Assembly (NCBI RefSeq): GCF_001403735.1
Contig: NZ_CXPG01000020.1
Span: 372,001 to 436,000 of the forward strand
Direction: 5' to 3'
Origin: Jannaschia rubra
GTDB lineage: Bacteria; Pseudomonadota; Alphaproteobacteria; Rhodobacterales; Rhodobacteraceae
DNA: 64,000 nucleotides
Positions 49,745 to 53,806 of this stretch are shown piece after piece. The notes below the pieces were generated by a model. The model did no database searches. It was not told the origin of the DNA and worked only from the letters and a program-made list of their open reading frames with translations. The first letter of the stretch is position 1. Each line of letters opens with the position of its first letter. A program made the translations under genes and the position numbers.

Positions 49745-50308
49745 CAAAAGCCGCGCCACTGCCTTCAGGCCCGGCGGCACCCCAGCATGGAAGAGCGAGA
49801 GCATCCAGAGCGCCTCCGCCCCGTTCGGCGCGGCCCCGATACGGCGCGGCGATGGCGGCCGACAGCAAAATGAGCAAAAGCAGCGGGCCCTGCCCCCCCG
49901 GGTGCGCGCAGATGGTCGGCCATGTGGACGAGAAACAGGGTCGCGGTGACGGCCACCGGCGTCGCGTCGACGAGCACGATGAGCAGCAGACGCCGTGCGG
50001 GGCCATCGCGCAGCACGGCGTCGAGCCCGCTGACGGGCGCCCCGTCGCCGCGCGACGACCATTCGACCGCCATCACCCGTCGCGCGAGCAGGACCGCCAT
50101 GGCGAAGATCGCCGCATACCAAGCCAAGGACGCCCCGGTTTTGGCCAGTGCCGGGGGGGTCGCGGCGGCGACCACGAGCTGGCGACAGCGGGGCGAGCGT
50201 GACGCCATGGCCTTCGACGCAGAAGCGGGGCGCGTAATCGTAGTCGGGAAGCCCCGACGCCGCCAGCATCGCCGCGAAGGAAGCCGGACGGGGCAGACCG
50301 GTGCTCAC
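49745..50308 (-). pseudogene. Broken MFS (GPH-type) transporter with internal deletion and frameshifts
   Basis: The original GTG at 50308 overlaps the DUF1365 stop (GTGA) and begins like an MFS carrier: SFAAMLAASGLPDYDYAP, then F-VEGHGVTLAPL. The frame then turns to Arg-rich nonsense near 50170. A second frame continues with membrane-type sequence (SLAWYAAIFAMAVLLARR; ARRLLLIVLVDATPVAVTATLFLV), and a third frame carries GPLLLLILLSAAIAAP near 49890-49830. Only about 560 bp remain of an expected 1.2-1.3 kb. So there is at least one large deletion and two frame changes. Confidence 0.8.
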
Positions 50309-51069
50309 CGTGAGACGCCGGAAGACGGCGGATCGGGCCGGTCGCGGAACGGCGCCCCCCGCCACCAGAGCCGCAGCGCCTGCCAGTGGATCAGCGCGAG
50401 CACCCGCCGGCTGCCGAAGGGCCGACGCAGCGCCGCGCGGAGCAGCGCGCCGTCGGTCAGGGGACGGCGCGGGCCGGTCAGCGTGGCGAGAAGCCTTCCG
50501 CCGGGCATCCGGTAGTCGATCCAGACGCCCACGCGGCTGTCCGAGATGTCGAAGCGGAACGTGTATCGCCCCTCGACCGGCTGGAAGGGCGAGACATGCA
50601 GCACCTTCTGCACCGTGATCCGCATGTCGGGCGCGATGGGGGCGAGGTCGTCGGCGTGGCAGAGATAGGAATGGCGGTCGCCATAGGTGTTCGTCACCTC
50701 GGCGATCACGGCGCGCAGCCCGTCGCCACCGTCGTGGATCAGCCAGAAGCTGACCGGGTTGAAGGTGTGGCCCAGCACGCGCGGCTGCGCCAGAAGCAGG
50801 ATGCGGCCCGGCGCGAAGTCCGGCAGGTGACACGCCAGCACGTCGCGCGCCCAGGGCAGGCCGCGCCCCTCGCCCGGCGGGCCGCCGTGGTCGCGGTCGC
50901 GCAGCGAGACGAGGTTGGCCCGGTCGCGCGAGAAGAACCGCGGCAGCGGGCCGGTGTCGGCGGGGTCGAGAAGGACGTAGTCGACGCCGTAGCGGAAGGT
51001 GTTGGCCACGCCGTCGGCCCAGCGACCGTGGAAGGTCGTGCCGGGCACATGGTCGAGGACGCGCCTCAT
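50305..51069 (-). CDS. DUF1365-family protein of the RpoE-linked operon
   Basis: 254 aa. DUF1365 features: FRYGVDYVLLD, FFSRDRANLVSLRDRDHG, ILLLAQPRVLGHTFNPVSFWLIHD, VIAEVTNTYGDRHSYL and KVLHVSPFQPVEGRYTFRFD. In R. sphaeroides its equivalent is in an RpoE-controlled operon tied to furan fatty acid formation, as I recall; the exact reaction is uncertain to me. Overlaps the upstream FAD gene by 4 nt and the broken MFS gene by 4 nt. Confidence 0.85.
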   Translation of the reverse strand: MRRVLDHVPGTTFHGRWADGVANTFRYGVDYVLLDPADTGPLPRFFSRDRANLVSLRDRDHGGPPGEGRGLPWARDVLACHLPDFAPGRILLLAQPRVLGHTFNPVSFWLIHDGGDGLRAVIAEVTNTYGDRHSYLCHADDLAPIAPDMRITVQKVLHVSPFQPVEGRYTFRFDISDSRVGVWIDYRMPGGRLLATLTGPRRPLTDGALLRAALRRPFGSRRVLALIHWQALRLWWRGAPFRDRPDPPSSGVSR

Positions 51070-52397
51070 TCGGCGGCGACCTGCACCGGGTCGCGCGCGG
51101 CCAAGGCGTCGGCCACGTCAAGCGCGCTGACGAAGCCGTCCTCGTGAAAGCCGTTCCGCATCCAGGCGCCGCAGAACCAGGTGCGATCGGTGCCGTTCGC
51201 CGCGCGCAGCCCCTCGACCGCCTGCATCATCGGCAGATCGTAGACCGGGTGACGGAAGGTGGTGACGTCGTGGATCAGATCCTCGCGGATGGGGCGCTGG
51301 GGGTTGAGGGTCGAGAAGAGCGGGTCGTCCTGGGGAATGGGCTGGAGCCGGTTCATCCAGTAGGTCAGCCCGATCCGGTCGGGGCGCGCGGCCTGCTCGG
51401 CGTAGTTCCAGGCGGCCCAGACCTTGCGCCGGCGCGGCATGACCGAGGGGTCGGCATGCAGCACCGCCTCGTTGTCCTGAAAGCGCACGCGGGAGAGGAG
51501 CGCGGTCTCGTGCGGGCGCGGATCGGCGAGAAGGCGCAGGGAGTCGTCGGCGTGGGTGGCGAGGACCACATCGTCGAACCGCTCCGGCCCCTGGCCTGCC
51601 AGAACCTCGACCCCCGGGGCATCGCGGCGGATGGCGCGAACCGGGGTGCCGAGCCGCTGCTCCACCCCCATGCGGGCCAGCCGGGCCGTCAGGCGGGCGA
51701 CATATTCCGCCGAGCCGCCGCGCACCGTGTACCACTGGTGCTGGCCCTTGTGGCTGAGCAGGTTGTGGTTGCGGAAGAAGCGCATCATGGCCTGCGCCGG
51801 AAACTCCATGACCTGCCGGGTTGGCGTGGACCAGATCGCCCCCGAAATCGGGGCGAGATACCAGTCGCGGAACTCCTGCCCCATGCCCAGCCGGTCGAGG
51901 AAGGCCCCGAGCGGCAGGTCCGGGTCGCAGGCCGCATCGGCCGCATGGGCGTTGAACCGGAAGATGTCGCGCACCATCCGCAGGAACCGCGGCGACAGAA
52001 GGTTGCGGCGCTGGGCGAACATCGTGTCGGCGGTGCGGAGCGAATATTCCACGCGCCCCCCGTCGAGCGAGGCGGCGAAGGACATGTCGCTTTCCGCGAC
52101 AGGCACGCCCAGGTCGTCGAACAGCGCGACGAGGTTGGGATAATTCGCGCGGTTCCAGACGATGAAGCCGGTATCGACGGGCCGGTCGCCGTTGCGCCCG
52201 GCGAGGATCGTGCGGGCATGGCCGCCGGCGCGGGACTCGGCCTCGAACAGGGTGACGCGGTGGCGGGGGGCGAGGGCATGGGCCGCGATCATGCCGCCGA
52301 TGCCCGCACCGACGATCGCGATGCGGCGCGGCGGGTGGTCGTGAAAGGCGGGGGGCAAGTGCGGCGGTGTCCGTCCTGTTGTGTTGTATTCCGGCAT
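51066..52397 (-). CDS. FAD-dependent oxidoreductase (amine-oxidase/desaturase fold), RpoE-linked
   Basis: 443 aa. The N-terminal FAD-binding motif is RIAIVGAGIGGMIAAHAL, then FEAESRAGGHART, and DTGFIVWNRANYPNL. A C-terminal FAD block lies in WFCGAWMRNGFHEDGFVSALDVADAL. This is the NAD(P)-binding/flavin amine-oxidase type next to rpoE in Rhodobacter (RSP_1091-like), which I recall as linked to furan fatty acid synthesis on membrane phospholipids. ATG 52397 has no good ribosome site; if the minus-strand TGATCC at 52424-52419 is the -35 element, the ATG would be at or near the transcript start, so the true start may be slightly downstream. Confidence 0.82.
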   Translation of the reverse strand: MPEYNTTGRTPPHLPPAFHDHPPRRIAIVGAGIGGMIAAHALAPRHRVTLFEAESRAGGHARTILAGRNGDRPVDTGFIVWNRANYPNLVALFDDLGVPVAESDMSFAASLDGGRVEYSLRTADTMFAQRRNLLSPRFLRMVRDIFRFNAHAADAACDPDLPLGAFLDRLGMGQEFRDWYLAPISGAIWSTPTRQVMEFPAQAMMRFFRNHNLLSHKGQHQWYTVRGGSAEYVARLTARLARMGVEQRLGTPVRAIRRDAPGVEVLAGQGPERFDDVVLATHADDSLRLLADPRPHETALLSRVRFQDNEAVLHADPSVMPRRRKVWAAWNYAEQAARPDRIGLTYWMNRLQPIPQDDPLFSTLNPQRPIREDLIHDVTTFRHPVYDLPMMQAVEGLRAANGTDRTWFCGAWMRNGFHEDGFVSALDVADALAARDPVQVAAE

Positions 52398-52466: not shown

Positions 52467-52496
52467 TGATCCGCGCAACAGCCCGCGCCGTAGTCA
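52467..52496 (+). promoter_or_regulatory. Putative RpoE (ECF sigma) autoregulated promoter
   Basis: TGATCC at 52467-52472 is followed after exactly 18 nt by TAGTCA at 52491-52496. This fits the R. sphaeroides sigma-E promoter pattern TGATCC-N18-TA, known for rpoE-chrR. Transcription would begin near 52503, which excludes the upstream ATG at 52459 as the rpoE start. A divergent TGATCC sits on the minus strand at 52424-52419 facing the FAD gene, but without a TA at the -10 position. Confidence 0.6.
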
Positions 52497-52548: not shown

Positions 52549-53160
52549 ATGTCCGCCCGCCCGGAGCCGGAGACGCATGTGGCGGAGACCGAAAAGGACG
52601 ATGCCCATTGGACAGCGCAGATGATTGCCGTCGGAGCGGCCCGCGACCGCGCGGCCTTCGAGGATCTGTTCCGCCACTATGCCCCGCGCATCAAGGCGTT
52701 CCTGATCCGCACCGGGCTTGCGCCCCCGGTGGCGGAGGACTGCATGCAGGATGTGATGGTCACGCTCTGGCGCAAGGCGCATCTCTACGATCCCGCGCGG
52801 GCGAGCGTGGCGACATGGGTGTTCACCATCGCGCGCAACCGCAAGATCGACATGATCCGCAAGACGCGCCGGCCGGAGCCGGAGGACCTGACCTGGGGGC
52901 CGGAGGCCGAGCCGTCGCAGGCGGACGTGGTCGCCATGCGCCAGGAGAGCGCGCGGCTGGCGCAGGCGGTGGCCGAGCTGCCGGAGCGGCAGCGCGACCT
53001 GGTGCAGCGCGCCTTCTTCGGCGAGGCGACGCACAGCGAGATCGCCGCCGCGACGGGCCTGCCCATGGGCACCATCAAGTCGCGCATCCGGCTGGCGATC
53101 ACGCGGCTGCGCGAGGCCATGCCGGAGGGTACGGCCGACAGGGACAGGGACGGGACGTGA
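52549..53160 (+). CDS. rpoE: ECF RNA polymerase sigma factor RpoE
   Basis: 203 aa from ATG 52549, chosen because the upstream ATG 52459 lies before the putative promoter. Sigma region 2 runs from AAFEDLFRHYAPRIKAFLIR through AEDCMQDVMVTLWRKA to TWVFTIARNRKIDMIRK; region 4 is LPERQRDLVQRAFFGEATHS with the recognition helix GLPMGTIKSRIRLAITRLRE. It is followed 4 bp later by chrR. In Rhodobacter this sigma factor switches on the singlet-oxygen response; that role is inferred here from sequence type and neighbours. Confidence 0.9.
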   Translation: MSARPEPETHVAETEKDDAHWTAQMIAVGAARDRAAFEDLFRHYAPRIKAFLIRTGLAPPVAEDCMQDVMVTLWRKAHLYDPARASVATWVFTIARNRKIDMIRKTRRPEPEDLTWGPEAEPSQADVVAMRQESARLAQAVAELPERQRDLVQRAFFGEATHSEIAAATGLPMGTIKSRIRLAITRLREAMPEGTADRDRDGT

Positions 53161-53164
53161 CGAC

Positions 53165-53806
53165 ATGAGCATCCGGCATCCCATCGGGGACGACCTTCTG
53201 CTGGGCTTCGCGGCCGGAACGCTGCCCGCGGCGCACGATCTGGTGGTGGCGACGGCGGTGTCGCTGGACGACGACGCACGCGCGCGGCTGGGCGGGTTCG
53301 AGACGCTGGGCGGCGCGCTTTTGGAGCAGGCCGATGCCGCGCCGGTGGGGGACGACGCGCTGACGGCGGTTCTGGGCCGGCTCGACGAGGAGGAGGACAT
53401 GGCGCCCCCGCGCCGTATCTGCGGCGGGATCTTTCCGGCACCTTTGCAGGACGCGGTGGGCGGCGATCTGGCGGCGGTGCGCTGGCGGCCCGTGGGGATG
53501 GGCGCGCGGCAGGCGGTGCTGCACCGGAGCCCGCGCGGGACCGCGCGTCTGCTTTCGATTCCGGCCGGTCAGGCGATGCCCGACCACAGCCATCGTGGAA
53601 CCGAGCTGACGCTGGTGCTCACGGGCGCGTTCCGCGATGGCGACCTGCGGTTCGCGCGGGGCGACCTCCAGGTTGCGGACGCCAGCACCGAGCATCGCCC
53701 CACGGCGGAGCCTGCGGAGGACTGCATCTGCCTTGTCGTCACCGACGCGCCGCTGCGCTTCGCGGGGCTGTTGCCGCGCCTGTTCCAGCGGTTTCTCGGG
53801 ATCTGA
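53165..53806 (+). CDS. chrR: ChrR-family anti-sigma factor lacking the anti-sigma-domain zinc ligands
   Basis: 213 aa, aligning without gaps in numbering to R. sphaeroides ChrR as I remember it. The N-terminal domain (1-85) should hold sigma-E using zinc bound by His6, His31, Cys35 and Cys38; here these positions are Pro6, Ala31, Asp35 and Ala38 (MSIRHP; VATAVSLDDDAR). The C-terminal cupin keeps its metal ligands His141, His143, Glu147 (DHSHRGTE) and His177 (TEHRP), plus Cys187 and Cys189. So the sensor half looks intact while the sigma-binding half cannot bind zinc in the known way. It may still inhibit, as zinc-free anti-sigma domains exist. Confidence 0.88.
   Translation: MSIRHPIGDDLLLGFAAGTLPAAHDLVVATAVSLDDDARARLGGFETLGGALLEQADAAPVGDDALTAVLGRLDEEEDMAPPRRICGGIFPAPLQDAVGGDLAAVRWRPVGMGARQAVLHRSPRGTARLLSIPAGQAMPDHSHRGTELTLVLTGAFRDGDLRFARGDLQVADASTEHRPTAEPAEDCICLVVTDAPLRFAGLLPRLFQRFLGI

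Follow-up and report, generated by a model that had tools for sequence, protein, structure and literature searches.

Can a ChrR anti-sigma factor still hold its sigma factor when every zinc ligand of its sigma-binding domain has been replaced? The question is raised by the chrR gene of Jannaschia rubra (53165..53806, + strand, 213 aa), which lies in a window of 64,000 nucleotides, i.e., the whole stretch of DNA analyzed here. The encoded protein matches TIGR02451 with 172.2 bits against a curated cut-off of 124.5, and its best solved relative by sequence is R. sphaeroides ChrR (2Z2S_B), residues 1-201 of which align in phmmer without a gap to residues 1-201 of the window protein. Within the anti-sigma domain (ASD, residues 1-85; 53165..53419, +), the zinc ligand His6 is replaced by Pro (codon CCC, 53180..53182, +), His31 by Ala (GCG, 53255..53257, +), Cys35 by Asp (GAC, 53267..53269, +), the last residue ahead of predicted helix 3 and hence at its N-cap position, and Cys38 by Ala (GCA, 53276..53278, +). 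The ZAS ligand set H/C-X24/25-H-X3-C-X2-C is accordingly absent (P6, A31, D35, A38). Pfam zf-HC2 does not match this ASD even at E up to 10; the same model matches the ASDs of two zinc-type controls, L020 with 22.3 bits, just above the cut-off of 22.2, and L022 with 18.5 bits, below it. By contrast, the cupin-like domain (CLD; 53432..53803, +; Pfam Cupin_7, 55.4 bits, residues 100-193) has His, His, Glu and His at positions 141, 143, 147 and 177, and C187 and C189 are kept as well. The preliminary description had noted just this combination, four ASD ligands absent and the cupin ligands present in a gap-free alignment, and the ligand columns of the alignment with 2Z2S_B bear it out.

The gene adjoins that of its ECF sigma factor, rpoE (52549..53160, +), the stop codon of which ends 4 bases ahead of the chrR start codon. 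R. sphaeroides RpoE (2Q1Z_A, E 1.7e-74) is the single PDB match of this sigma factor at E up to 1e-20. The open frame of rpoE starts at 52381, and we chose the start at 52549 because an RpoE-type promoter-like site, TGATCC-N16-CGTA (52467..52492, +), lies upstream of it. The window has no other match to this motif, but one also turns up in 26 of its 100 shuffles (mean 0.29), so that by itself the site is not beyond chance and the case for it rests on the relatives. Divergent from rpoE, on the - strand, are a FAD-dependent amine oxidase-like gene (51066..52397; Pfam Amino_oxidase), which by its position would be the ortholog of ufaD (RSP_1091), and a DUF1365 gene (50305..51069; Pfam DUF1365, 225.4 bits) at the place of ufaO (RSP_1090), the product of which we take to be a DUF1365 protein as well. 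In R. sphaeroides, ufaD and ufaO are reported to make furan fatty acids (PMC7380195), and full activation of RpoE is described as needing RSP_1090, which also affects ChrR stability (PMC3818230). Against the characterised ChrR equivalog NF051881, the window protein scores 135.4 bits, under the cut-off of 300, as does the zinc-type control L020 (143.2 bits).

A sequencing error at the ligand codons is ruled out because 11 other Jannaschia genomes have the same loss (P/E6, A/T31, D35, A38) in differing synonymous codons. No second, intact ChrR was found in the 27 contigs of the host's own genome, rated 100% complete, where the next TIGR02451 match reaches 11.6 bits against the cut-off of 124.5. 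The ligand loss is thus real and clade-wide, and, judging from the sequence comparisons set out below, the most plausible reading of the protein is a ChrR that works without a metal. We put at roughly three in four the probability that Jannaschia ChrR functions with an ASD that folds and holds RpoE without metal, while the zinc-bearing cupin domain stays the stress-sensing part.

Ligand states among relatives

TIGR02451 matches are present in 326 of the 394 genomes searched in the host's taxonomic family. Most, though not all, of these loci went into a survey set of 306 rows, comprising 305 distinct sequences, the window's among them, and R. sphaeroides ChrR. The ASD ligands are HHCC in 264 of the 306 rows (one of the 42 others is a fragment without the ASD), whereas the cupin ligands are HHEH in 304, the two exceptions being L012 (VERH) and the shortened sequence L227; to judge from these counts, selection guards the cupin ligands far more than those of the ASD. 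When only the 288 rows with an adjacent RpoE are considered, 32 lack at least one ASD ligand: C38 in 31, C35 in 23, H6 in 23 and H31 in 14, these counts being rows rather than independent events. The residue that takes the place of Cys35 is Asp in 13 of the 23 rows, Ser in 9 and Asn in 1. All 12 ChrRs found in the 20 genomes of the genus share the P/E6, A/T31, D35, A38 state. The suggestion that this might simply be the common non-zinc form therefore holds for the genus (12/12) but fails for the wider family, in which 256 of the 288 RpoE-linked rows are HHCC.

Elsewhere in the survey, L079, L091, L097 and L021 are QHCA ChrRs, having neither His6 nor Cys38, and apparently represent two separate lines. 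Sixteen ChrR-like orphans (L217-L226, L228-L233), for which no RpoE of this type was found within about 1 kb on each side, include 9 without the zinc set and 7 with HHCC. A class-wide search with a zinc-free ASD profile, by design a biased probe, gave matches in 139 of 385 genomes. Of the best 30 matched loci, which were examined, 5 lie inside the host's taxonomic family and 25 outside; 3 of the latter are ligand-poor with cupin HHEH and an adjacent RpoE (RHDS, LHSG and MMRL), so that ASD ligand loss is not confined to this family. The MMRL protein (L366), in which all four ASD ligands are replaced beside an intact cupin and an adjacent RpoE, probably reached complete loss independently of Jannaschia.

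In an IQ-TREE phylogeny of 63 rows with the ligand columns blanked, the ligand-poor ChrRs of the genus belong to a clade of 20 (support 81/99). One side of it consists of seven genomes with HHSA, NHSA, SHCA or NHSS (99/95) and the other of Thalassobacter (HHNA) and the 12 Jannaschia (100/99), Jannaschia alone (PADA) being supported at 100/100. The relatives thus hold intermediate states, and the state of the window protein lies at the extreme of a gradation rather than being the outcome of a single event; when mapped on the tree, the loss proves clade-wide in Jannaschia, as the preliminary description anticipated, but its view that four ligands were lost together does not stand. The codons at residue 35 (TGC for Cys, AGC/AGT for Ser, AAT for Asn, GAC/GAT for Asp) are linked by single-base steps. 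Fitch parsimony leaves the direction along Cys, Ser, Asn and Asp unfixed, with one shortest labelling beginning at Asp. About four independent exits from Cys lead to Asp, Ser or Asn at this residue. Overall, the change between HHCC and non-HHCC takes a minimum of 9 steps on the ChrR+RpoE FastTree phylogeny (288 rows), 7 on the ChrR-only tree and 7 on the 63-row IQ-TREE phylogeny.

Two broader interpretations follow this pattern. The first, to which we would give even odds, is that the ASD zinc of ChrR is not the singlet-oxygen sensor, and that several lineages turned the ASD into a metal-free lock, Jannaschia with 0 of 4 ligands and with a path visible in its relatives, leaving the cupin alone to read the signal. 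The second, possible but rather doubtful, is neutral drift, whereby the zinc was a small structural extra that was lost without any change in behavior. The several independent losses (at least 7-9 changes) would suit drift, as would the reported mixing of zinc-type and zinc-free members in several anti-sigma groups (PMC7406223). However, among the RpoE-linked ligand-poor rows, C38 is lost in 31/32 and H31 in 14/32, and residue 35 changes to Asp, Ser or Asn only, which hints at structural selection, albeit over few independent events. Drift overlaps with our favored reading of a working, metal-free ChrR, the sole difference being whether behavior changed.

Possible substitutes for the zinc anchor

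In zinc-type ChrR, a single zinc joins three parts of the domain: the N-terminal segment through His6, helix 2 at its end through His31, and helix 3 at its start through Cys35 and Cys38. We propose that this staple was given up stepwise in the Jannaschia line, and that ordinary packing, together with N-capping of the helix by residue 35 (Asp here, Ser or Asn in relatives), may have replaced it. Asp, Ser and Asn are favored helix N-caps, and residue 35 is the residue ahead of helix 3 in the AF2 models of both the window protein and the zinc-type control L020. Counter-examples to such capping are Ala at this position in 5 of the 9 ligand-poor orphans and Arg in L366.

The AF2 model of window ChrR, computed on 12 rows, has ASD helices at residues 9-16, 22-34, 36-55 and 65-74, nearly the same as in L020, and its top six Foldseek matches in the PDB are the ChrR chains of 2Q1Z and 2Z2S (E 3e-17 to 4e-14). 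AF2 does not model zinc, so the models say little about the metal. Ten-residue pLDDT averages across residues 11-50 run to 90/86/82/83 for the window protein and 87/92/88/76 for L020; over residues 1-10, they are 63 and 75, respectively. Across residues 61-80, the values are low in both (69/48 and 67/55), so that helix 4, a sigma-binding helix, is uncertain in the two models alike. The overall mean is a modest 71.8 for the window protein and 79.1 for L020.

Other candidate substitutes fared less well. A change in the partner as the explanation of zinc loss was rejected: at 14 RpoE positions, 10 or more of the 12 Jannaschia agree on a residue that fewer than 25% of zinc-type rows have, but these positions single out no mechanism, and K38 is unchanged. 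D25 and R41 occur in 20 of the 20 rows of the ligand-poor clade, against 6% and 43% of zinc-type rows, respectively, but a D25-R41 salt bridge is a weak candidate, with D25 in none and R41 in 7 of the 12 other RpoE-linked ligand-poor rows.

It is improbable, in our estimate, that the site was instead rebuilt for another metal, such that an ion is bound by the acidic turn D35-D36-D37 with His5 or other residues. D35 and D36 are indeed fixed in the PADA clade, where residue 37 is Asp or Glu and His5 is invariant, and His5 is present in 12 of the 12 rows of A2. Yet zinc-type ChrRs also have D36 (81%), Asp or Glu at 37 (70%) and His5 (99%), so that D35 alone is new; moreover, Pro6 gives way to Glu6 in one species, and the intermediates have Ser or Asn at residue 35. 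We retain the metal-free ASD as the preferred reading. The cupin domain would still respond to stress, presumably singlet oxygen, by bringing about the loss of ChrR and hence the release of RpoE, in concert with the proteases and furan-fatty-acid genes known from R. sphaeroides.

Constraint on the anti-sigma domain and fate of the module

ASD distances in the PADA clade are below those of zinc-type pairs in 5 of 5 RpoE-distance bins, and the ASD/CLD distance ratio is 1.45, against 1.52 (sd 0.29) for the zinc type; when pairs are not matched for RpoE distance, the mean ASD/RpoE ratio of the PADA clade slightly exceeds that of the zinc type (1.59 vs 1.51). Codons for the Jannaschia replacement residues vary, although the residues themselves are conserved. 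Two close pairs, taken without a zinc-type baseline, give ASD dN/dS values of 0.18 and 0.21; in them the ASD changes faster than the CLD, with an ASD/CLD dN ratio of 3.31 and 2.00 and a CLD dN/dS of 0.08. The comparison of WIN with L003 gives an ASD dN/dS of 0.64 on low dS, and in several pairs dN/dS is saturated or unstable. The RpoE-type promoter motif is found upstream of rpoE in 245 of 252 HHCC rows, in all eight intermediates and in 9 of the 12 Jannaschia, against mean backgrounds over 50 base-content shuffles of 0.36, 0.02 and 0.04 rows, respectively. Within the genus, RpoE of this type (66-100% identity) is present in all 12 genomes that bear ChrR and in 0 of the 8 others, seven of which have ECF factors at best 29-33% identical and one of which has no match; simple loss of one operon could also give this pattern.

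These observations bear on the reading of ChrR as a relic, in which the ASD has stopped binding and RpoE is constitutively active. Such a reading is very improbable, even though inhibition in R. sphaeroides is reported to require zinc at these ligands (PMC6852236) and though ChrR and this RpoE are both absent from 8 of the 20 genus genomes, so that the module is dispensable in some. The ASD is under the usual constraint, and is kept even where the cupin decays, and none of the 20 genomes has this RpoE without ChrR; accordingly, the "permanently active" module envisaged in the preliminary description finds no backing.

Most of the clade shows no decay of the whole chrR gene, but the cupin decays in L012 and partly in L011. 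The CLD of these two proteins is the most changed in the genus (mean distance 0.58 and 0.41, vs 0.24-0.31 in other Jannaschia), keeping 32 and 46, respectively, of the 55 CLD columns that are invariant in the ten other rows. Their ASD distances (0.39 and 0.36, vs 0.31-0.40) and RpoE distances (0.28 and 0.26, vs 0.23-0.29) are ordinary, and of the 26 invariant ASD columns they keep 24 and 25. The genomes concerned, G006 (L012) and G012 (L011), are the only two of the 12 ChrR-bearing ones without DUF1365, a family present in the 10 others and in 14 of 20 genomes across the genus, and both also have no promoter match; in L013, the promoter match is likewise absent, yet DUF1365 is present and the CLD ordinary. 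An ordinary ASD and RpoE beside a changed CLD point to a lock that is preserved even when its sensor is fading. The extreme case is L012 (1501-2139, G006), in which the cupin ligands are lost as well, a decaying sensor with a kept lock. G004, G007, G014 and G019 keep the ufaO-like DUF1365 gene, with neither this RpoE nor ChrR found.

From these patterns of conservation, the zinc-free ASD looks functional, and its role as a lock appears to be under selection. The earlier suggestion of a changed mechanism, i.e., inhibition without zinc, rather than random decay gains support from the ASD distances of the PADA clade, the conserved replacement residues and the mostly retained module. Least probable of all is that the module was re-purposed, with the cupin and the zinc-free ASD answering a signal other than singlet oxygen: PF00124, the reaction-centre family, is without a match in the host's own genome (G000), but is present in 11 of the 12 ChrR-bearing genus genomes, and the window keeps the cupin ligands, the promoter site and the ufaD/ufaO-like genes. 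Across the genus, PF00124 is found in 14 of the 20 genomes.

The role of the zinc and comparison with known systems

On what the ASD zinc contributes to the sensing of singlet oxygen, two published views diverge. It has been proposed that singlet oxygen is sensed in part through its reaction with the zinc-thiolate site of the ChrR ASD (PMC6432622), and a review from the ChrR field describes the precise role of this zinc in the response as unknown (PMC6852236). The ChrRs analyzed here bear on this question by offering a natural series from four ligands to zero, in marine bacteria and with the module largely intact, by which the role of the zinc can be tested beyond single mutants. They are valuable for this series and also because the cupin ligands are guarded whereas those of the ASD have been lost repeatedly. 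They are a case of a protein giving up a structural metal, and the purpose of the ChrR ASD zinc may already have been put to a natural experiment.

The premise that the zinc fold is essential for holding the sigma factor stands only in part: it is so described for R. sphaeroides ChrR, where zinc binding is said to be required for inhibition (PMC6852236), but other ASDs are reported to hold sigma without zinc (PMC6852236, PMC7406223, PMC5358783). About 44% of class I ASDs are stated to have no HX3CX2C, and mixed groups exist (PMC7406223). RshA-SigH binding is described as independent of metal (PMC3427169), and in a meningococcal protein the His of the ZAS motif is reported to be dispensable, consistent with RsrA and ChrR (PMC2893595). 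Among the matches listed in the literature searched, no description of a ChrR lineage without ASD ligands was found; in the part of PMC7074977 that concerns J. rubra, the species is named only for gene order.

Of the known systems that come nearest, R. sphaeroides ChrR (2Z2S, 2Q1Z; TIGR02451) shares with the window protein the gap-free alignment over residues 1-201, the cupin ligands, C187/C189, the rpoE-chrR pair and the ufaD/ufaO-like neighbors; it differs in its four ASD zinc ligands, none of which the window protein has, and in the D25/R41 pair of the ligand-poor clade. The nearest clade, Thalassobacter (HHNA) and the seven-genome sister group (SHCA, HHSA, NHSA, NHSS), likewise has an adjacent rpoE, the promoter site (8/8) and D25/R41, but, unlike Jannaschia, keeps His31 in 8/8, His6 in 5/8 and Cys35 in 1/8. 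E. coli RseA and M. tuberculosis RskA differ from ChrR in being membrane proteins without a cupin domain. Their ASDs resemble that of Jannaschia in working without the zinc motif (PMC6852236, PMC7406223), RseA being described as having no significant sequence similarity to ChrR (PMC6852236). B. subtilis RsiW, too, is reported to hold SigW without zinc (PMC5358783), although, unlike window ChrR, it keeps CHCC ligands and a membrane anchor. Zinc-free ASDs are thus already known, as in RseA and RskA, and the ligand-free ChrR lineage is a new variant among them.
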